Source: Alphaproteobacteria bacterium | Lineage (GTDB): Bacteria; Pseudomonadota; Alphaproteobacteria; UBA9655 | Length of the DNA stretch: 38,644 nt | NCBI GenBank assembly: GCA_013287205.1 | Contig: JABDEE010000007.1 | Span: 1 to 38,644 of the forward strand | Direction: 5' to 3' | Shown: positions 6,461 to 23,709 of the stretch, piece after piece | Layout: the number at the start of each line of letters is the position of its first letter | Position numbering within the stretch: position 1 is the first letter of the stretch | Made by a program: the position numbers and the translations under genes | The notes under the pieces: generated by a model | Seen by the model: the letters and a program-made list of their open reading frames with translations, nothing else | The model's database searches: none | Told to the model about the DNA's origin: nothing

Positions 6461-6577
6461 TCACGCCGAAGCCTTGGCGAAGGCGGAGTGTAGCGGCAGG
6501 AAATAGAGTACAAAAAGATATGTCAATATCTTTTCTCCTCTTATTTCTTACTTTTCCGACTAACTGCTCCACCGCTA
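6421..6577. repeat. Dispersed repeat family A copy 3, with GC hairpin insert
   Basis: The left end is gtgtagcg and the right end is gctccaccgctatac. The insert runs from tccgccgtcgcgacga to aggcgga and contains the perfect palindrome ggcgtgatcacgcc. The core (aaaaagatatgtcaatatct, then ttatttcttacttttccgac) matches copies 1 and 4. It joins tpiA and the prohead protease tail to tail and provides the stop codon of both. Confidence 0.85.
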
Positions 6578-7024
6578 TACTGCGCGTGCGACAGCACGAC
6601 TGTTCGCCCCGAACGTCACCAAAGAAATCTCCAGAAGATCAATATCCAACAACAGACGAGCATGTGTCTTTGGATCGCGGGTAGCCTTAAGGGTGCGAAA
6701 TCCAATGGAAAGATGATCAATCATTCCTTCCTTCAGCAAAATAGAGGCTTCATCTGCCCTGCGAACACCTAAAGCCAATTTACCTTCCCCATAAAGGCCC
6801 GTTTCATCTTCATGGAGATGCGTCCATATCCCAATCGGCGTTTTCGGATCATGTTGCCACAATAAAGGCGGCCATTTCCCAAAGCGTCGCCAGGCGCTCA
6901 AGGTTTTTGAAAAGGCCCCCGGGGCGATGGCATCATTCTGCCGATCCACCACTCTAAAAACGCTCGCATACCCAGAAATCATAGGGTTTCTGGCCGTTAC
7001 TAAGGATGGGTGTTGTGTCATCAT
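6575..7024 (-). CDS. HK97-type phage or GTA prohead protease
   Basis: A head maturation protease of the HK97/U35 family, which trims scaffold or major capsid protein during procapsid assembly. The fold signatures are ISGYASVFRVVDRQNDAIAP, the His block LLWQHDPKTPIG and the Ser block IDHLSIGFRT, then LLEISLVTFGANSRA. About 149 residues is short for phage enzymes but usual for GTA-type ones. I take ATG 7024 as the start because AAAGGA lies 8 nt before it; ATG 7021 is also possible and the upstream TTG is poorer. The expected downstream neighbour, a major capsid gene, is missing; repeat A3 and tpiA follow instead. The last residues and stop lie at the edge of repeat A3. Confidence 0.88.
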   Translation of the reverse strand: MMTQHPSLVTARNPMISGYASVFRVVDRQNDAIAPGAFSKTLSAWRRFGKWPPLLWQHDPKTPIGIWTHLHEDETGLYGEGKLALGVRRADEASILLKEGMIDHLSIGFRTLKATRDPKTHARLLLDIDLLEISLVTFGANSRAVARAV

Positions 7025-7174
7025 TTTAAGATCCTTTCTCAAAAAAAGTTCCGAGAACTCTAAAAAAAAACAAGAAAAATGGCGCTGTTAATAAAATATT
7101 ATGAATTCATGGATATACTGAGATCAACAATAAGAAAAAAAACAAATAACATGTACACACAAAGGAGAACGACA

Positions 7175-7444
7175 ATGAAAAATACACTCGCTTTTGCAGC
7201 TCTTATGGCTGCAGTAACTTTTGGCGCAAATGCACAAGCTGCTGTTGGTCTTGAAAGCCAACAGAATCTTATTCGTTTTGCCCCAATGGCTGGCGTCGCA
7301 TCAACTGGATGCAACTCTTGCGCTTGCCCAATGGAATGCCCTTGCATGCCAACATGCTGCCCAGCAAACCGCGGCATCTTTGACGGCGGCTTGAACAAGT
7401 GCTGCGTTGAACAAGTTGTATGCCCAACACCTTGCGGCATGTAA
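7175..7444 (+). CDS. Small cysteine-rich secreted protein, unknown
   Basis: An 89-residue protein with a clean signal peptide (MKNTLAFAALMAAVTFGANA, cleavage near AQA). The mature part of about 67 residues has 11 cysteines, mostly in CxC, CxxC and CC pairs (CNSCACPMECPCMPTCC and, further on, KCCVEQVVCPTPC). The start has AAGGAG 8 nt before the ATG. The pattern suits a disulfide-rich envelope or secreted protein or a metal binder; I recognise no family. It lies on the opposite strand between portal and prohead protease, where GTA and phage head clusters normally have nothing or a small head gene, and it ends at repeat B1. It looks like an insertion. Confidence 0.75.
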   Translation: MKNTLAFAALMAAVTFGANAQAAVGLESQQNLIRFAPMAGVASTGCNSCACPMECPCMPTCCPANRGIFDGGLNKCCVEQVVCPTPCGM

Positions 7445-7445
7445 T

Positions 7446-7522
7446 GTAACAGGTGACAGGGATCAGGTGACAGGTGTCAGGAAAGTAACCCTGACTCCTC
7501 GATCCTGTCCCCTGACTCCTGC
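7446..7522. repeat. Dispersed repeat family B copy 1 (gtgacagg / cctgactc ends)
   Basis: Short copies of aggtgacaggg and caggtgtcagg on the left face ccctgactcctc and cccctgactcctg on the right as inverted repeats. It lies between convergent genes and encodes the last residues of the portal (ESGDRIEESGLLS), which repeat an E-S-G pattern. The core found in copies 2 and 3 is absent. Confidence 0.6.
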
Positions 7523-8670
7523 CCAAGAGGCGGGTATCCCACAAGGGCCCGCTTTTCATTACAGGTCAGAAAGCTTGCATTTGCAATTTTTCCCCACAAG
7601 GCCTCCCGCTTCGGCGCTAAAGCTGAAATCGACTCTGTATCATAATCCAACCTTAAATGGCTCCCAAAAAAAGGTGTAAGCCAGTGAGTCAGCTCATTCT
7701 TAATCATCTCAAGATGTGGCAGAATTGTATCCTCCCAAAGGTGATACCGCGCTTCCTTGTAATTCGCAAAAGTGGCATCGCCCGGCACTCCCACAAGCAT
7801 GGGTGGCACCCCATAAACTTGTGCAATCTCTCGCGCCGATAAATTTTTCCCCTCGATAAAATCCAAATCCTTTAGGGAAAGACCCATTTCTTTCCAGACG
7901 AAGTCTCCCTCCAAAAGCATCACCCGTCCCGCATTCCGCGCCCCTTCATAGGTATCCTGCAGCTCCTTGCGCAACCGCGCGCGCTGCTCTTCCGTAAGCT
8001 GTGTCCCGTAGGGCAACTTCACCTCCAAAGCGCCTGTGGGCCGTCCCCCATTTTGCAGGAGAGATAAATTATGTCCTGCAACCGCATTATGTTGATCAAT
8101 GGCGTGCGCTGCCGCCTCAATGGGACTCATTCCATACCAATCATGAAGGGGGTGAAAAGTCCGCAAGTGAAGAAGCCGTGACTTTCCATTGAGAGGGTCC
8201 ACAGGGATCCGCACAGACCGTCCATTCAGCGTGTATTCATAAGCCTCCGGAATCCCTGTCCTCCCGGGCACAACCCGCACGCGATCCGGACGCAAGAGGT
8301 ACAACTCGAAAGGCTCCCCCTCCGCCATTACCGCTTCAATATACACATTCCCCGCTAGAAGAAGATAGGAGATGAGTGCTTCCATAAACCGTGGCAATCC
8401 CTGCTGTGGATTCGGATTTTGGAGAAGCTGCAACAAAGGGTGGCGCGTCAGGAGCCGATCCTTCTCATAAAGTTGCCAAGGAACACTCGCAACCCCTCGG
8501 GAAATCAGGGAAACACACCGATAAACAACAATGTTTTTCTGATACCCCTCCTCCGCCAGCGTATCATATTGGCGCGGCGTCCAAATGGGTTGGCTCCCGC
8601 CTGTTGTCATAAACAGGGGAGCCGTTGCACTGGCCTTCGTTTGGCGTAGACGATCCATCCATTTTTTCAT
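7477..8670 (-). CDS. HK97-type phage or GTA portal protein
   Basis: The dodecameric portal at the head vertex through which DNA is packaged. The family pattern is clear: IVVYRCVSLISRGVASVPW near the N-terminus, HPLLQLLQNPNP, LLAGNVYIEAV, LRPDRVRVVPG, the stem region REIAQVYGVPPMLVGVPGD, then NYKEARYHLWEDTILPHLE. At about 397 residues it has the size of GTA portals (ORFg3-like). I start at ATG 8670 because ACGGAG lies 7 nt upstream; the TTG two codons earlier is less likely. It lies 371 bp downstream of cckA on the same strand and upstream of the prohead protease. No terminase is seen upstream. The C-terminal tail is repeat-derived. Confidence 0.92.
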   Translation of the reverse strand: MKKWMDRLRQTKASATAPLFMTTGGSQPIWTPRQYDTLAEEGYQKNIVVYRCVSLISRGVASVPWQLYEKDRLLTRHPLLQLLQNPNPQQGLPRFMEALISYLLLAGNVYIEAVMAEGEPFELYLLRPDRVRVVPGRTGIPEAYEYTLNGRSVRIPVDPLNGKSRLLHLRTFHPLHDWYGMSPIEAAAHAIDQHNAVAGHNLSLLQNGGRPTGALEVKLPYGTQLTEEQRARLRKELQDTYEGARNAGRVMLLEGDFVWKEMGLSLKDLDFIEGKNLSAREIAQVYGVPPMLVGVPGDATFANYKEARYHLWEDTILPHLEMIKNELTHWLTPFFGSHLRLDYDTESISALAPKREALWGKIANASFLTCNEKRALVGYPPLGQESGDRIEESGLLS

Positions 8671-8731
8671 GGGCAAACTCCGTTTGTAGTGATTAGAGCG
8701 TTTTTGAATTAAGTCTAGACATCCACGAGGG

Positions 8732-9041: not shown

Positions 9042-11462
9042 CTACCCCAGAATCGCCTTCACCTGCACAGCCAAATCACTGAGGCTAAAAGGTTTGGACA
9101 GAAAATGAATTTCTTCCTCATTTTCAAAATGCTCCGAAAAAGCATCCTCTGTGTAGCCCGAAATAAACAGAACCTTAGGCGGATCCCCGAGCTTATTCAT
9201 CTCATTCACAAAAACAGGCCCATCCATGTGGGGCATCACCACATCCGAAATTACGAGATCAATTTTATCCCGTTTCGCTTGCATCACTTCAAGGGCCTCC
9301 ACACCATTAATGGCTTCAATCACCGTGTAGCCCTTACTGCGCAACGCCCGCGCACTAAAGAGTCGTACCGCATCCTCATCTTCCACTAACAAAATCGTGT
9401 GAGATCCTGTGAGATCATGAGGAGGCGCGACTTCTTTGGGACGCGGATCAGCGTGTTTGACATCCTCAAGCTTGCCCCCATAGGTGGGAAAGAAGATACT
9501 AAACACCGTGCCCTGCCCCACCGTTGATTCCACATGAATAAAGCCCCCTGTTTGCTTCACAATTCCGTAAACTGTCGAAAGGCCAAGTCCCGTCCCGGAG
9601 CCCACTTCTTTTGTGGAAAAGAAGGGATCAAAAATGCGGTCAATAATTTCAGGGGAAATCCCCGTTCCCTCATCCTCAACCTCCACCAGGACATATGATC
9701 CCGCCGGAATCACATCATGCCCATATCGTTTGGCTTTCTTAAAGTCACGATTCTGGGTTGTCAGGGTAATCACGCCCCCCGCCCCTTCTAATGCATCCCG
9801 CGCATTCACCACCAGATTCGTAATCACTTGCTCAAATTGGCCCTGATCCACCAGAATCAACCCTAAATCTCGCGCATGCTTTATTTTGAGTTCAACCGTG
9901 GCGCCCAACAATCGACGCAAAAAGGCGGAGAGCTCCGTGATCGTCTCTGTGACATCCATAATCTTAGGCTTTAACTTTTGCTGACGGGAAAACGCCAATA
10001 ACTGGCGCACAAGGTTCGCCGCCCGATTGGCATTCTGCTTAATCTGCATCACATCCGTAAAGGACTGATCCCCCGGCGTATGGCGCAAAAGCAAGAGATC
10101 ACAAAAGCCAATCATGGCCGTCAGCAGATTATTAAAGTCATGGGCAATCCCGCCCGCCAGCTGGCCCACTGCCTGCATTTTCTGCGATTGACTCAGTTGG
10201 TTTTCATAAGGTGTATTTCCCGTCACCTCATGAAATTGAAGGAAGAACCCTTGGCCCCCCTTAAGGGACAGCGGCGCAAGGTAGGCGGACACAACCGACT
10301 CTTTCCCATCGCTCAGCTGGAGATCAAGAGCCACCCCTTTTTCATTTCCTTTTGCAAGGGATTGCAGAAGTCCCTCCACATCCTCCCGCTGAAAATCCGC
10401 AATATAGTCAAGGAAGCAGGCCTCCTCAGGCACCTTTTCTTTCGGCCACAGCCGATCCCGCAAGAGGGGGTTCATATCTTGGATCATGCCGTTGACATCA
10501 AGGTAAGCGGCAGGAAAGGGCAATAAAGCAAAACTCTTCTTCAAGTCCCCCTGACTCACCCCCTCAGAAGCCACCGAATGGGTCAGAAATCCTCCCCCAT
10601 GAGGAAGCACAACTTGATCAAGATAAACCGTCTTCCCTCTTGAGGTGGCCGTCATTAATTCGCACCGCCCTTGAATATCAAAAGGACGCGAGATCTCCTT
10701 AGGCCTCGGGTTTAAAAGAAGTTTTGAAAAGGGGAGACCGACCACCTCTGCAGGCGCATACCCTAACCATTCAGCAAATTTTGTATTACAAAAGACCACA
10801 ATCCCTTTTTCATTCAGAGAGAAAACACCCTCCGGGGATTGCTCAAAAAGGACTGTCATAATCTCTGTTTGAGACGTCTCCTTTGCGGTTTCGGAAACTC
10901 CCTTCTGAGAACAAGACCACACCGCGCCCTCCTCCACAGGCGTCGTGTGAATCTGCCACACCTCCTCCCCTTCCGATGAACGAAGGGAGAGAGACACCGT
11001 CGCAGACGTCTTCTGCTGAACACTCTTGAAAAGGCGCTCAAGGGCCGTTTGACTGCCCTTATCCCTAAGGGCGGCAGGCAAATTCCCAAGCCACCAACAG
11101 GTTTCTCGCGCTTGTTGATTTTTACAAAAGAACTGGAGATCGGGCGTCACCATCACAAGCGCAAGCGGCGCTTTCTCATAAGCTGTCACGGAAAATTGTT
11201 GAGTCGTCGTCGTCGTTTTGAGCTTCTCAAGGGCCATGAGCAGAAAGACGATCATGCTCCCCGCCCCACACAACATGATGACTGTCAGAAGAAGATAGGC
11301 CGTGTTGCCTGAAAGGCCGACCATCACACCACCGAGAAGGAGGATGACCCCCATATTCAGGAAACACAGTACCCACACGCGCCTGAGCTCCTGAAATTGC
11401 AGGGGCACCGCCAAGTATTTCGTAAAATAAGATTTGAGTCGTGCCCACAACATAGGCCGCAT
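9042..11462 (-). CDS. cckA: Hybrid sensor histidine kinase, CckA type
   Basis: The cell-cycle phosphorelay kinase that, in Caulobacter and relatives, feeds CtrA through ChpT. About 806 residues. The N-terminus has two membrane helices, then PAS-like segments ([20 protein letters not shown]). The HisKA box is [20 protein letters not shown] with the phospho-His. The HATPase has [34 protein letters not shown] and [18 protein letters not shown]. The C-terminal receiver has LLVEDED and the acceptor Asp in [13 protein letters not shown]. The domain order and the GGIAHDFNN box are characteristic of CckA. ATG 11462 has AGGA only 2 nt away; ATG 11453 (11 nt) and TTG 11492 are alternatives, so the start is uncertain by about ten residues. 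Nearby GTA genes fit the known CckA-CtrA control of GTA in Rhodobacter. Confidence 0.92.
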
Positions 11463-11503
11463 TTTCCTAAAATAAAGATAAAAAGTCAACAAAAAAGCAC
11501 TTC

Positions 11504-18176: not shown

Positions 18177-19145
18177 CTACCGATAAGGATCCGCCTTCAC
18201 AAGATACTGCTGCACATACTGCCGCACCCCTTCCTCAAGAGACGTGAAAGGCGCATCATATCCTGTGCCACGCAGACGCGTCATGACAGCTTCCGTAAAA
18301 TATTGATACTTCGGTTGTAAGGAAAGGGGCATATCCACAAACTCAATCACAGGGTCTTTGCCTAAAGCTTTAAAAACCGCCACCGCTAAATCATAAAAAC
18401 TACGCGCTTTTCCTGTGCCTAAGTTAAAAAGACCACTCACCTGAGGATGATGGTAAAGCCAAATCATGGTATCCACACAATCACCGACCCAGATGAAATC
18501 GCGCAGCTGTCCCCCATCTTCAAAACCTTCCCGATGAGATTTAAACAAACGCGCAGGCTCTCCTTGAGAAATCTGACGAAATGTCTTTGACACAACACTT
18601 TGCATATCCCCCTTATGGTATTCGTTGGGGCCATAAACATTGAAAAATTTGAGACCCGTACATTGAGGGGGCACCCGTGAGCCTGCAGCTTCAACACATC
18701 GGTCAAAGAGATGTTTACTCCATCCATACACGTTTAAAGGCACAAGATTGGCAAGCGGAGACGCATCATCAAAACCCACACTGCCATCCCCATAGGTCGC
18801 TGCTGAAGACGCATAGACCAATCGAATATCTTGTTGCCGACACATCTCGAGCAACATCATCGAGAATTTAAAATTCATCGACATCATCAAGTCAGCATTG
18901 GTTTCCGTGGTCGAACTATTGGCGCCCAAATGATAGATCATCTGAACATCGTGCCCATGCCGCTCAAGAAAAGGCTTTAAATCTTCAGGAGAAATGAGAT
19001 CCACAATGGCACGACGCTTGAGGTTTTGCCACCGTTCGTCAGACCCGAGGGTATCGCAGACAACAAGAGGCCCTAAGCCGTTTTCTTCAAGCTTTGCGAC
19101 CAAATTTGATCCGATAAAGCCTGCCGCCCCCGTTACAACAATCAT
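18177..19145 (-). CDS. hldD: ADP-L-glycero-D-manno-heptose 6-epimerase
   Basis: Last step of ADP-heptose synthesis for the LPS inner core, in the cytosol. This short-chain dehydrogenase-type epimerase has the NAD(P) loop GAAGFIGSNL at the N-terminus, LGANSSTTETNADLM typical of HldD/RfaD, the catalytic Ser/Thr region YASSAATYGDG and the YGWSK Tyr-Lys pair. It ends after EGVRQYVQQYL. 322 residues, normal. The ATG overlaps the stop of the upstream alanine-rich protein gene (TAATG), so the two are translationally coupled. Its presence implies heptose-containing LPS or ADP-heptose signalling in this organism. Confidence 0.95.
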   Translation of the reverse strand: MIVVTGAAGFIGSNLVAKLEENGLGPLVVCDTLGSDERWQNLKRRAIVDLISPEDLKPFLERHGHDVQMIYHLGANSSTTETNADLMMSMNFKFSMMLLEMCRQQDIRLVYASSAATYGDGSVGFDDASPLANLVPLNVYGWSKHLFDRCVEAAGSRVPPQCTGLKFFNVYGPNEYHKGDMQSVVSKTFRQISQGEPARLFKSHREGFEDGGQLRDFIWVGDCVDTMIWLYHHPQVSGLFNLGTGKARSFYDLAVAVFKALGKDPVIEFVDMPLSLQPKYQYFTEAVMTRLRGTGYDAPFTSLEEGVRQYVQQYLVKADPYR

Positions 19146-20029
19146 TATGCGCCTGCAGCCGCAGGAGGAGGAGATTTATCCTTAGATTTGGCAGCAGCTG
19201 AGTTAGATTTGTCAGCGCCCGGCTTGGCGTCAGCAGACGCTCCCTCTGAAGGATGCTTATCCACTGGTTGCTTATCATCTTCTGCAGGCACAACGGGTTC
19301 AAGAGAAGAAACGGACTGATGGGTCAAGTCTTCAAGTTCTTCAGCAGCTATTTTAAGTTTTTCCTCCAGCTTCTCCAGAGATTCTCTCTCGCGACGCAGT
19401 CGATCTCTGACATGCTTTTGAGGTAGTTTAAAGGCTTCTCTTTGTTGAGAAGAAATATCATAAACAGACAATCCATGCTTCTTAAAGATCATCTGGGCCT
19501 TTCTCACTTCCTGTTTGAGAGCTTTATTTTCCTCAGTCGTATCCTCAAGTTTTTTACGCATGAGGTCCACTTTTGATTGCGCCTCATGATACTTTTTCTC
19601 CGCTTTTTCCACAGCTGCCTCATGCTTTGCAGCTTCTTTTGCAGCAGCGGCAGCTTTTGCAGCAGCAGCGGCAGCAGCCTCTGTTGCCTCTGCATCCTTT
19701 TTAGCAACCGCAGCAGCTGTAGCCGCAGCTGTAGCCGCAGCTTCGGCATTTGTCATTGACGTTACAGCCTGAGGTTTTTTTGGCTGTGCAGGTTTTGCCG
19801 CCGTTGATTTCGGGGTAACAGCTGATTTCGGGGCAACAACAGGTAAGGAAACGGCAGGTGCCTTCCCGGACTGAGCTGCGGATGCAGGAGCATCAGCCCT
19901 CGCAGGGGACAAGACGCACAGGCAAGACAGCAAACAGGAAAGTATCATCGGGCTTGCACCTGTGGATGCAAAACCAAGAGTGCGAAGAGGGAAAAAAGAA
20001 ACGCGAGATAGACGTGTGAGAAAGCGCAT
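19145..20029 (-). CDS. Secreted alanine-rich coiled-coil protein, unknown
   Basis: A 294-residue protein with a long N-terminus that contains a hydrophobic export segment (MILSCLLSCLCVLSPARADA) from residue 28. The start at 20029 has AGAGGG upstream; starting at Met28 would give a more usual signal peptide, but no site is visible there. After a Pro/Ala/Lys linker come alanine runs (AAATAAATAAAVAKK), then about 110 residues of charged heptads (EKKYHEAQSKVDLMRKKLED and following) that look like a coiled coil, then an acidic Pro/Ala/Lys tail. It overlaps hldD by one base. TolA-like in composition only; no function assigned. Confidence 0.7.
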   Translation of the reverse strand: MRFLTRLSRVSFFPLRTLGFASTGASPMILSCLLSCLCVLSPARADAPASAAQSGKAPAVSLPVVAPKSAVTPKSTAAKPAQPKKPQAVTSMTNAEAAATAAATAAAVAKKDAEATEAAAAAAAKAAAAAKEAAKHEAAVEKAEKKYHEAQSKVDLMRKKLEDTTEENKALKQEVRKAQMIFKKHGLSVYDISSQQREAFKLPQKHVRDRLRRERESLEKLEEKLKIAAEELEDLTHQSVSSLEPVVPAEDDKQPVDKHPSEGASADAKPGADKSNSAAAKSKDKSPPPAAAGA

Positions 20030-20146
20030 TATAGCCCTCTTATTATTAATTTTTACAAACGAATCCTAACAGGACTCTCAGCTTCTCTCAAGTAAAAATC
20101 TTTTGTGTGTGTGAGCCCAGTATCTATGAGACTCGCATATGCGACT

Positions 20147-20180
20147 CAAGTGAGAACCTTTTTGAAAAGATTCTCACTTG
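20147..20180 (-). terminator. Hairpin after the repeat protein gene
   Basis: caagtgagaa (20147-20156) and ttctcacttg (20171-20180) are perfect 10-bp arms around a 14-nt loop, 30 bp past the stop of the gene at 20210. No long U-tract follows, so it is a likely but weak terminator. Confidence 0.5.
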
Positions 20181-20209
20181 GTCCATCTTTTTGGTCGGCT
20201 TCAATCTTT

Positions 20210-20824
20210 TTAGTGAGGAGTCCGTCCAGCTTTTTTATCAGCCTTGGCAGCAGCCTCTTTAGCAGCCACAAGCTTTTCATCAGCCTTAGTAGCTGCAGTT
20301 TTAGCGCTAGCAAGAGCTTTATCAGCCTTTTGCTTAGCTTTATCAGCCTTTTGCTTAGCCTTTTGATCAGCTTTGTTAGTAGGATTAGCAGTAGCCGCTG
20401 CATCAGCAGAAGTAGCCGTTGCATCAGCAGAAGTAGCAGCCGTTTGAGCAGACGCAAGCTTTGCATGAGCAGCATCAGCAGCCGTTTGAGCTTTCACAAG
20501 ATTTTTATCAGCTTTATCAGCCGTCTTTTCAGCAGCAGTCTCACCCGCCGGTGCTGGAGGAGTAGACGCTGGCGTTCCAGTAGATTCTGGTGTCCCAGCA
20601 GATGCTGGCGTTCCAGTAGATGCTGGCGTCGCATCAGATGCTGGTGTCGCATTAGATGCTGGTGTTCCAGAAGCCTCCTGAGCATGTTCTTTTTTATAAA
20701 GCGCTTCTTCCCTTGCTCTTATATCTGCCTGTGCTTTAACTTGCGTAGTGGTGGTAAGAAGAGCAACCGCAATGAGTGAAGCTCCTCCTAGAATTTTTTG
20801 TAAAGTTGTTATGTTCTTCATCAT
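20210..20824 (-). CDS. Secreted repeat protein with MMKN-type leader, unknown
   Basis: About 204 residues. The signal peptide MMKNITTLQKILGGASLIAV is nearly the same as that of the gene at 28137 (MMKNLTTLQRILGGAMLALL), including GGAGAAA just before the two Mets. The rest is unrelated and low in complexity: six hexapeptides of the form GTPASx/ATPASx, then Ala/Lys/Asp-rich stretches (KADQKAKQKADKAKQKADKA) likely to be helical. I start at ATG 20824; the earlier ATG at 20833 overlaps the ribosome binding site. Probably periplasmic or exported. No function known. Confidence 0.7.
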   Translation of the reverse strand: MMKNITTLQKILGGASLIAVALLTTTTQVKAQADIRAREEALYKKEHAQEASGTPASNATPASDATPASTGTPASAGTPESTGTPASTPPAPAGETAAEKTADKADKNLVKAQTAADAAHAKLASAQTAATSADATATSADAAATANPTNKADQKAKQKADKAKQKADKALASAKTAATKADEKLVAAKEAAAKADKKAGRTPH

Positions 20825-20934
20825 TTTCTCCATGTTTAAGATTTAGTTACATCTTCTTTCTGCTCACGAGTTCTTCCCCAATCGCCCTTTTCATTCCTGG
20901 CTTTCAACAGAAGGCTCATATAGCCTTGTCTCCG

Positions 20935-20981: not shown

Positions 20982-21503
20982 TCACTTCCCAAAAAAAAAC
21001 CGACTATCCTTTAATTTACTCCCGCGAGAGGACCCAAACTCAAAGGCATAGGCGTCCTTAAGACAGGATCCAAAAATACCAGCCACGGTTGAAATAATCC
21101 CCACGGCTTCTCCGGGAAGACTGCTACGATACAGAGCAATTGTCATCAGGCAAGAAACCAGGCCCATGGCGGCCGCAATTACCATAATATCTGCCCGAAA
21201 ATTACTGCGTCCGGCATTAGCAAGGGCAATGTCACGCAGACGGGCACTTTCTCGATCTTTATATTCCTCCATCACTAACGCTTGATCCAGCTTGAGGATC
21301 TCTTGTTGAAATTGGATAAGGACGCGCGGATCTGATTGAAGCACCTGTAAAATTTTGGACGTCTCTCCCTCCCCTGTCACCGTCTGAGCAATATGAGCAA
21401 CTTTTTGAGCTGTCTTGGCCCCCTCCTCTCCGTTGATCCACCGCCCAATCATCGGTGCAAATTCAGATAACGCAGAGACGAAACCAACCAAGGGAAAAGT
21501 CAT
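20982..21503 (-). CDS. 3-TM holin, GTA release type
   Basis: A membrane protein of 173 residues resembling the family described as holin of 3TMs for gene-transfer release. The N-terminal part has an amphipathic helical stretch (FAPMIGRWINGEEGAKTAQK), then a charged helix (QFQQEILKLDQALVMEEYKD and RESARLRD), NAGRSNFRADIMVIAAAMGL, and two hydrophobic segments near residues 105-125 and 130-155. Its ATG overlaps the stop of the hydrolase gene (ATGA), and AGAGG precedes it. With the hydrolase it would form a lysis pair that lets particles or cell contents out. The family call is from pattern memory and could be tested by a profile search. Confidence 0.75.
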   Translation of the reverse strand: MTFPLVGFVSALSEFAPMIGRWINGEEGAKTAQKVAHIAQTVTGEGETSKILQVLQSDPRVLIQFQQEILKLDQALVMEEYKDRESARLRDIALANAGRSNFRADIMVIAAAMGLVSCLMTIALYRSSLPGEAVGIISTVAGIFGSCLKDAYAFEFGSSRGSKLKDSRFFFGK

Positions 21504-21925
21504 GAGAACCTCTTTTCAAGCTGGTAAAAAAGATGATTTCCAAGATGCACTTGAACATTGCGTCCTTTGGCCCAAGAAGGATGACACGAAGCCGCATGGT
21601 AATGGTCGCACCCACCGGTCAAGTCGGGCCACCTTTGAGAATCCAAATTTTCAACCACCGTGGTGATGAGGCGAAAGAGGGAATTGGTGCCAAGATCCGC
21701 TTTGTCGAGAAGGAATCGATTGGGATCCCCCTCATTCCAACAAGAAAATTGCTGAGGTTTCAAACACACCTCCGCAACCGTGCGGCCATACCACCCTCCC
21801 CGCTGCACCCGGTTCATCACCACGTTTCCAATGGCAATAAAAGCCGCAATCCCACTGCGGGCATATTCCCCGCGCGCTTCCCCATAAAGGGTGCGAGCTA
21901 AAACATCGCGATCTTGTGCATTCAT
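21500..21925 (-). CDS. Cell wall hydrolase, SleB-like (Hydrolase_2), probable endolysin
   Basis: A 141-residue peptidoglycan hydrolase of the SleB/Hydrolase_2 group. It has RDVLARTLYGEARGEYARSG with the catalytic Glu in YGEARGE, AIGNVVMNRV, CLKPQQFSCWNEGDPNR and the terminal CDHYHAASCHPSWAKG block; this order is the family signature. I start at ATG 21925, which has AGGAG 8 nt upstream and overlaps the stop of the preceding gene (ATGA). The longer TTG start has no site. No signal peptide, so it would need the adjacent holin to reach the wall, as a phage or GTA endolysin does. Confidence 0.88.
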   Translation of the reverse strand: MNAQDRDVLARTLYGEARGEYARSGIAAFIAIGNVVMNRVQRGGWYGRTVAEVCLKPQQFSCWNEGDPNRFLLDKADLGTNSLFRLITTVVENLDSQRWPDLTGGCDHYHAASCHPSWAKGRNVQVHLGNHLFYQLEKRFS

Positions 21926-22434
21926 AAGGGGTCTCCTGTGATAAGGCGATGCCAACGTTTTCCTTCAAAAAAGATCAAGGACGCCCCCTTCTCATCCAGA
22001 AAAAGAGCTTGTGTTCCAAGAGGAGCCTGAGGCGGAAGGGTAGCCTTTTCATATAAAAGAAGGGGAGATAAATGTGGGGGCGGCGCTATCATCTCGTGCC
22101 ACCTCTCCCCTTCCCACGTCTGGCTCTGGTGATCGTGCACACAAACATAGAGCCCATAGGCATGCGTCACAAACTCAAGCCTGCGATAAGGAGTCTGAGG
22201 TTGCCAAGCTCCCCGAAAAGCAAGGGTGGGAACGGGCAAAGAAAACGTCCCAAAATCTGTTCCAAATGTCCCAATGAGGGTCATGTGATGACCTTGAACA
22301 CGCACCTTCCCAATCCCTTCTCCCATCCCAGGGTGGTCTTCAAGGGCCTTGAGACGCGCTGCAAGCTCATGGAAATTGCCATCGACTTCTTCAGATGTAA
22401 GGGGTGCGCCTTTTTCATGACGATAGATAATCAT
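21922..22434 (-). CDS. Phage/GTA tail-associated protein, probable
   Basis: 170 residues. The N-terminus MIIYRHEKGAPLTSEEVDGN, then FHELAARLKALE, is a common opening of phage tail or baseplate-associated proteins (the xKGxPLTxxEVDxNF motif). The C-terminal half has repeated aromatic/Gly strands (YGLYVCVHDHQSQTWEGERW, ASLIFFEGKRWHRL) of the kind seen in carbohydrate-binding tail modules. GGAGG lies 7 nt before the ATG. It heads the tail-hydrolase-holin set, coupled by ATGA overlaps. Role in particle attachment is inferred. Confidence 0.65.
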   Translation of the reverse strand: MIIYRHEKGAPLTSEEVDGNFHELAARLKALEDHPGMGEGIGKVRVQGHHMTLIGTFGTDFGTFSLPVPTLAFRGAWQPQTPYRRLEFVTHAYGLYVCVHDHQSQTWEGERWHEMIAPPPHLSPLLLYEKATLPPQAPLGTQALFLDEKGASLIFFEGKRWHRLITGDPL

Positions 22435-22446
22435 AGATAATCCTCC

Positions 22447-22617
22447 GGGTTTCAGGAATCAGAAAGCAGGAATCAGGAAATTTTAGTTTCCTCCTGTTCT
22501 GCCTTCAGTTTACAGAAATTTTTTGAGGGCTCAAATTTTGCGAGTGGCCTTTTGAAGAGGCAGGAATCGGGAAGGGCTTTTTGCCTGATTCCTATTTTCT
22601 GCTTCCTGTTATCGCGG
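22447..22617. repeat. Dispersed repeat family B copy 3
   Basis: The left end tcaggaatcagaaagcagga faces the right end cctgattcctattttctgct in inverted sense. The core gtttacagaaattttttgag through gcgagtggcctttt is close to that of copy 2 (8930-8974). It fills the space between rodA and the tail/lysis cassette and includes the rodA stop. No other promoter-sized space exists upstream of the lysis genes. Confidence 0.7.
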
Positions 22618-23709
22618 CAGCTTTGCCGTCCGGTGCGCACCCACATTGAGCAAGAATCCAAACCCCATGAGAAGCGTCAGCAAGGCCGTCCCCCCATAAG
22701 ACACAAGGGGCAAAGGCACACCTACAACCGGCAAGAGGCCCATCACCATACCAATGTTAATAAAGACATAGAGGAAGAAGGTGATCGTGATGCCAGCGGC
22801 CACAAAACGCCCAAACACATTTTGAGTCGTAAGAATGATACGAAAACAAGCAATCAGAAGGACCACATAAAGGCCAATCAGGAAAAGCCCTCCCATAAAC
22901 CCCCATTCCTCACACAAAAGCGTAAAAATGGAATCCGTCTGCTTTTCCGGTAAAAACCCAAGGGAGGCTTGCGTCCCTTGCATATAACCCTTCCCCCATA
23001 ATCCCCCAGATCCAAGAGCAATCTTTGATTGATTAATATGGTATCCTTTCCCAAGGGCATCTTGCCCTGGGTCAAAGAAAATCAGAATGCGATTTTTTTG
23101 GTAGTCATAGAGGAAATTCCACAAAAGGGGGATACTCGCAGCCGCCCCCATCAAAGCAACGCCGAAAAACCACAAAGAAACACCTGCCAAGAAAAACATC
23201 ATGCCCCCTGTCAGGAGAAGGACCATTGCCGTCCCTAAATCCGGTTGGCGCAACACGAGACACACAGGGAGGAGGACGAGAAGGGTTGGAAACCACACTT
23301 TGGCGAGGGACAGGGGAAGTGATTGACTATGGAAATACCGCGCAAGCGCCATCACAAGGGCAATTTTCATAAGTTCAGAAGGTTGCAGTTGAATCACATA
23401 GAGGTCAATCCACCGCTCTGCCCCCATGCCCATGAAGCCCATACACTCAACACCACACAAAAGCACAAAGGAAATCCAGTAAAAAATATAAGAAAACTGG
23501 AGCCACCACCGTAAATTCGTCAGCGCCACCCCTCCCATAATAAGGATACCAATACTAAATCGCACAATCTGCTTAGACGCCCAAGGGGAGATATCCCCCC
23601 CGGCTGCAGAAATAAGAAGCCCCCACCCCAGGGCTGCAATCACAAAAATGAGACCGACGATGCCCCAATTAAGAGGCTTCATTTTTTGAAAAAAAGATTT
23701 AAGAATCAT
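22609..23709 (-). CDS. rodA: Rod-shape SEDS peptidoglycan glycosyltransferase RodA
   Basis: Polymerises lipid II for side-wall growth with PBP2. 366 residues with about ten helices. SEDS signatures are GMGAERWIDLYVIQLQPSEL, RQPDLGTAMVLLLTGGMMFF with the catalytic Asp in QPDLGT, SKIALGSGGLWGKG, FLPEKQTDSIFTLLCEEWGF and PLPLVSYGGTALLT. Its ATG overlaps the mrdA stop (ATGA). It ends the five-gene elongasome operon; the last residues and stop lie at the right end of repeat B3. Confidence 0.96.
   Translation of the reverse strand: MILKSFFQKMKPLNWGIVGLIFVIAALGWGLLISAAGGDISPWASKQIVRFSIGILIMGGVALTNLRWWLQFSYIFYWISFVLLCGVECMGFMGMGAERWIDLYVIQLQPSELMKIALVMALARYFHSQSLPLSLAKVWFPTLLVLLPVCLVLRQPDLGTAMVLLLTGGMMFFLAGVSLWFFGVALMGAAASIPLLWNFLYDYQKNRILIFFDPGQDALGKGYHINQSKIALGSGGLWGKGYMQGTQASLGFLPEKQTDSIFTLLCEEWGFMGGLFLIGLYVVLLIACFRIILTTQNVFGRFVAAGITITFFLYVFINIGMVMGLLPVVGVPLPLVSYGGTALLTLLMGFGFLLNVGAHRTAKLPR

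Follow-up and report, generated by a model that had tools for sequence, protein, structure and literature searches.

The window, by which we mean the whole stretch of DNA analysed (38,644 nt of contig JABDEE010000007.1, from the 64% complete MAG GCA_013287205.1), carries on its minus strand a cassette of three open reading frames, for a tail-tip-like protein, a SleB-type hydrolase and a holin, in this order, behind rodA (Table 1). The first-pass annotation of this DNA had described three frames chained by two ATGA overlaps about 175 bp after rodA, with a repeat in between, and every element of that layout was confirmed. At the first junction the stop of the tail-like gene (21922) overlaps the start of the hydrolase (21925), and at the second the hydrolase stop (21500) overlaps the holin start (21503). 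The ORF tool had begun the hydrolase at a TTG (21955); homologues put the true ATG at 21925. A strong Shine-Dalgarno sequence, GGAGG, lies at 22442-22446, 7 nt upstream of the ATG of the tail-like gene. Since homologues of the cassette occur in 34 further loci, chance open reading frames are excluded. The inverted repeat in the gap behind rodA has 28-nt arms (22453-22480 and 22581-22608, 86% complementary), and the gap transcript folds at -49.4 kcal/mol, better than shuffled sequences (z -3.0). Neither a canonical terminator nor a sigma-70-like promoter for the cassette strand was found in the gap, and therefore read-through from rodA is possible. Rfam and tRNA scans of the whole window gave no match.

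Table 1. Positions and supporting matches of the features discussed in the text.
Feature	Position	Strand	Evidence and remarks
HK97-type prohead protease	6575..7042	-	TIGR01543, E 4.7e-31
HK97-type portal	7477..8676	-	PF04860, E 1.7e-86; part of dispersed cluster
cckA-like hybrid histidine kinase	9042..11492	-	Closest family CckA (E 6e-178, under the curated cut-off); 365 bp upstream of portal
TeaA-type holin, 173 aa	20982..21503	-	PHROG_1544, E 9e-17; conserved GIFGSCLKDAYAFEFGSSRGSK C-terminal block
SleB/CwlJ-type cell-wall hydrolase, 141 aa	21500..21925	-	Hydrolase_2 (PF07486), E 4e-16; PHROG endolysins
Tail-tip/adhesin-like protein (probable), 170 aa	21922..22434	-	N-terminal helix, ChiA1-type chitin-binding module, C-terminal beta domain
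rodA-cassette gap	22435..22608	-	174 bp; inverted repeat and GGAGG before the tail-like gene
rodA	22609..23709	-	Last gene of mreB-mreC-mreD-pbp2-rodA (27908-22609); NCBIfam TIGR02210 above cut-off

The membrane protein encoded by the last gene has no matching family in Pfam or NCBIfam. Nor does it match PF11351 (GTA_holin_3TM), a family for which no genome of the genus scored above the cut-off. The first-pass annotation had made its naming as a holin conditional on a profile search; Pfam and NCBIfam did miss the protein, but this result is overridden by homology to TeaA. TeaA of phage ICP1 is a tested holin that collapses the proton motive force and lyses V. cholerae, and its authors link it to GTA_holin_3TM by remote homology (PMC7182436). 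The window protein resembles ICP1 TeaA in being homologous over 164 aa, in its similar length and in its C-terminal FGSxxGSKxKD block. It differs in that identity over those 164 aa is 23%, and in that ICP1 is a lytic phage with the antiholin ArrA adjacent, whereas no ArrA-like gene was recognised in the window locus. The relative of the holin in locus L014 is closer to TeaA (30% identity, 92% coverage, E 2e-12), and identity between the window holin and its relatives in other genomes ranges from 36 to 75%. A fold search returned weak matches only, VHML ORF20 among them. Of the three transmembrane helices claimed in the first-pass annotation, two are clear both in hydropathy and in the AlphaFold model (residues 102-125 and 131-156; mean pLDDT 77); the N terminus is hydrophobic but borderline, so that a count of three is not secure.

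We could also ask which gene stands directly upstream of holin relatives in 13 phage loci: it is mostly endolysin-like, though of mutually unrelated types, being GH108-like in 8, M15-like in 3, DUF5675-like in 1 and of no assigned type in 1. The GH108 assignment is backed by tblastn in seven, the query itself included, and the other types were assigned by eye. A membrane protein that stays constant while its endolysin partner is swapped is the pattern expected of a holin. We conclude that the membrane protein is a homologue of the tested holin TeaA, and that the window copy would by its sequence have a role in lysis. No spanin was recognised. Among IMG/VR contigs, L142-L150 encode holins 44-50% identical to that of the window, and several of these contigs look Mu-like, with a GH108-type endolysin directly upstream.

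The profile of the hydrolase aligns with the SleB structure 4f55 through the GEARGE motif, the glutamate of which we take to be the catalytic residue, and the window copy keeps 23 of the 23 columns that are invariant among 27 aligned sequences. The protein consists of the catalytic domain only, from its first residues, with no signal peptide seen, and therefore needs help in crossing the membrane. It is the predicted endolysin of the cassette. The third product, the 170-aa protein, begins with a helix bearing the motif RxxKGxPLTxxExDxNF and shows a profile match to the chitinase A1 binding domain (1ed7, E 5e-5), with no Pfam family above cut-off. Its model (pLDDT 87) gave weak fold matches to phage tail fibres, baseplate receptor-binding parts and phage proteins with chitin-binding modules. 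It is probably a tail tip or a surface adhesin made in the same operon. A search of viral contigs for the start of the cassette found none. Just downstream of the cassette (19145-20833) lie genes for two alanine-rich, coiled-coil, low-complexity proteins, probably secreted; the 207-aa member of this pair has no homologue in the loci fetched.

Each of the 17 genus and family genomes searched has exactly one copy of the holin, which also occurs in three other genera of the class. We further found the holin in 34 GTDB loci, several of them titled Paracaedibacter, Odyssella, Caedibacter or Holosporales; the hydrolase accompanies it in 33 of these 34, at a distance of 75 bp or less in 26. Disruption of the cassette in relatives, which the first-pass annotation had held would count against it, was for the most part not seen: every genus genome examined has both hydrolase and holin as open frames. 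The tail gene was not found in the closely related G003, G006, G010 and G011 and is shortened in G001 and G012, and the nearest relative, G005, has a 500-bp gap between hydrolase and holin. With dS of the window genome near saturation, we took dN/dS from close pairs elsewhere in the genus, along with branch lengths; values for seven such pairs (0.07-0.12 for the holin, 0.02-0.12 for the hydrolase) indicate purifying selection.

In relatives, the pair is part of a larger unit. Seven genomes of the genus (G001, G002, G003, G007, G010, G011, G013), one of the same family (G015) and one of another family (G035) carry on one contig a block that runs from portal to holin in the order portal, protease, capsid, connectors, t190, an EamA transporter on the other strand, t614, t289, the tail gene where present, hydrolase and holin; t289 was not detected in the block of G035. 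The proteins t190, t289 and t614 belong to no informative Pfam or PHROG family that would mark them as tail tube, tape measure or hub, and no terminase was seen by eye within the clusters of four relatives (L084, L085, L087, L089). From this order it follows that the ancestral cassette was the 3' end of a GTA-like cluster. The label of a GTA-like lysis cassette, proposed from the sequence at first pass, therefore holds: a SleB hydrolase and a TeaA-homologous holin together form the 3' end of a head-gene cluster in relatives. The HK97-type set of portal, protease, capsid and connectors that marks an RcGTA-like GTA occurs in relatives as one block, and the window has portal and protease only. 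An earlier survey scored RcGTA-like clusters as zero in single genomes of Caedibacterales and Paracaedibacterales (PMC6821227), which makes the element at least divergent. Some observations concern the clusters of individual relatives. Several families share the EamA-type transporter that sits inside the cluster in opposite orientation (L074-L080, L082-L087, L014, L003). A pair resembling ribbon-helix-helix and RelE proteins by eye lies between t614 and t289 in L084 (11790-12261). In L089 (5854-13112, on a 628-kb contig of G032), a compact cluster consists of portal, a DGNF-motif protein, protease, capsid, connectors, a 515-aa protein and the holin; no SleB hydrolase was detected nearby, and the holin is kept without an endolysin.

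Vertical, single-copy inheritance under purifying selection, which characterizes a GTA, is indicated by the single-copy counts, by dN/dS and by the portal, of which each of 15 genus genomes has one locus (in G010 as two pieces at contig edges). Holin relatives do occur in free phages, the Mu-like contigs at 44-50% identity among them, as would suit an active prophage or a recently acquired phage remnant in place of a vertically kept GTA-like element. We regard such an origin as extremely improbable, given that a single copy, the same order and purifying selection hold throughout genus and family and extend to other families of the class, and that t614 and the tail-like protein have no phage match at all.

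In the window genome itself the block is dispersed. Portal and protease lie at 6.6-8.7 kb, with tpiA following the protease where relatives have the capsid gene; the C-terminal part of t614 is on contig C34, converging on rpoH (a sigma-factor name given by eye from sequence); and the cassette is behind rodA. The suggestion of a split GTA made in the first-pass annotation is thus supported for this genome, and, as the block is undivided in most relatives, the split counts as a derived condition. Capsid, t190 and t289, sought one by one in the MAG, were not found, and at 64% completeness these empty searches mean little. The 14-nt unit AAGCAGGAATCAGG occurs in six copies in the genome at one mismatch or fewer. 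Both broken ends have a copy: one lies between rodA and the cassette, the other at the 3' end of t614 in its displaced position. Judged after the fact, this suggests that the rearrangement is linked to the repeat. A reciprocal exchange between rodA and rpoH was considered and found unsupported, rpoH being absent from the stretch read after rodA in relatives.

Related repeat copies at both novel junctions are also what a repeat-driven misjoin would give, and the rodA-cassette junction is known from a single assembly, one MAG only. An assembly chimera made at the repeat is nevertheless unlikely in our judgement: with only some 28 nt at 89% identity, the shared repeat falls short of usual assembly k-mers, and a simple misjoin leaves unexplained why the gap lacks t289, which should stand ahead of the tail gene. 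Moreover, in the reduced relative G008, which has a small genome, the lysis end (with t289) is likewise parted from t614 and from the portal.

A displaced cassette could also be a dying relic, uncoupled from the head genes, its frames intact but unused for now. The cluster is in at least three pieces, searches of the MAG found no capsid, t190 or t289, and no hydrolase branch in the genus is longer than that of the window genome (G000; 0.65, against 0.22 for rodA), possibly reflecting relaxation after displacement. The holin branch, however, is not unusual in length; the three overlapping frames are intact behind a strong Shine-Dalgarno sequence, the hydrolase retains all its invariant columns, and all comparisons shown for the window genome put pN well under pS, though with dS near saturation. 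Decay of this kind is a real possibility, but we doubt it.

The first-pass annotation had further tied lysis to wall synthesis through the rod operon. Here conservation lends no support, and nothing beyond adjacency was found: within the ~1.0-1.5 kb read behind rodA, the cassette is present in 0 of the 13 other testable genus genomes (G010, with too little sequence, was left out), and the nearest relative, G005, has it upstream of cckA and mreBCD-pbp2-rodA instead. The adjacency is therefore private to the window genome and does not speak for a functional link; the cassette probably landed behind rodA by accident. Recruitment by the rod operon would have rodA read-through supply the hydrolase, perhaps with the holin, for wall remodelling or growth-linked lysis. 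The shared strand, the 174-bp distance and the failure to find a canonical promoter or terminator for that strand in the gap would allow it. Recruitment is nonetheless very unlikely, as the arrangement recurs in none of the testable genomes, the gap contains a long stable inverted repeat, and a hydrolase with no signal peptide seen, partnered with a holin, has a design for lysis, not for remodelling. We would give just as little weight to the idea that, once displaced, the GTA lysis genes came to be driven by the promoter of the elongation machinery and that in this lineage their dosage now tracks wall synthesis.

We therefore favor, as the likely explanation, that the cassette is the release end of a vertically inherited, domesticated-prophage (GTA-like) cluster of a Holosporales-type lineage, the block having been broken here so that the cassette now stands behind rodA. 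In the mechanism we propose, the TeaA-type holin would accumulate in the inner membrane, trigger and open holes; the signal-less hydrolase could pass through these holes and cut peptidoglycan, and the cell would burst, freeing particles. The 170-aa protein with its module binding chitin or GlcNAc would be made in the same operon as a tail tip or surface adhesin. The ancestral block may have been broken by recombination at the dispersed 14-nt repeat, which would have cut the cassette off from the head genes. Reduced genomes in which the cluster has broken up serve as a natural experiment on the survival of the lysis part without head genes, and holin plus hydrolase make a two-gene target amenable to E. 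coli.

Lysis genes that serve a GTA are of a known kind; what is new is a TeaA-type holin with a SleB endolysin inside a Holosporales cluster, and its break-up here. Head clusters of GTAs in Rickettsiales and Holosporaceae endosymbionts have reportedly been described by George et al. (2022), the head genes being present with tail parts missing. As in that account, portal, protease and capsid are kept in reduced, host-associated Alphaproteobacteria, but in our case the head genes are followed by tail-tip-like genes and by a lysis pair that is conserved. That head clusters kept by protist symbionts end in a conserved TeaA-type holin and SleB endolysin under purifying selection argues that release by lysis has been retained. 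Release of GTA-like particles differs between model species, with a holin and endolysin in Rhodobacter and LypABC in Caulobacter. The lysis genes of R. capsulatus, rcc00555 for a putative lysozyme and rcc00556 for a putative holin, lie outside the structural cluster (PMC3423380). As with RcGTA, a holin and an endolysin would here serve a GTA, and the structural cluster of the window genome is now without a lytic enzyme. Unlike in RcGTA, the ancestral lysis pair lay inside the cluster, at its 3' end, with an endolysin of SleB type and a holin of TeaA type that PF11351 does not match. The GTA of Caulobacter crescentus, likewise alphaproteobacterial, is released by host lysis; in C. crescentus no holin-endolysin genes were found, and lysis depends on the immune-like LypABC system (PMC9632790, PMC13236601).

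Between portal and protease of the window, a plus-strand ORF (7079-7444) resembles a small secreted-protein ORF beside the portal in G005. The cckA-like gene found upstream of the portal in the window has counterparts close to the cluster's lysis end in G003, G005, G006, G010, G012 and G014, in G003 about 27 bp after the holin. The title of a study cited in PMC13236601 names CckA as a modulator of lysis and GTA release in R. capsulatus, and for this tie to GTA release the linkage of cckA to the GTA-like cluster deserves attention.
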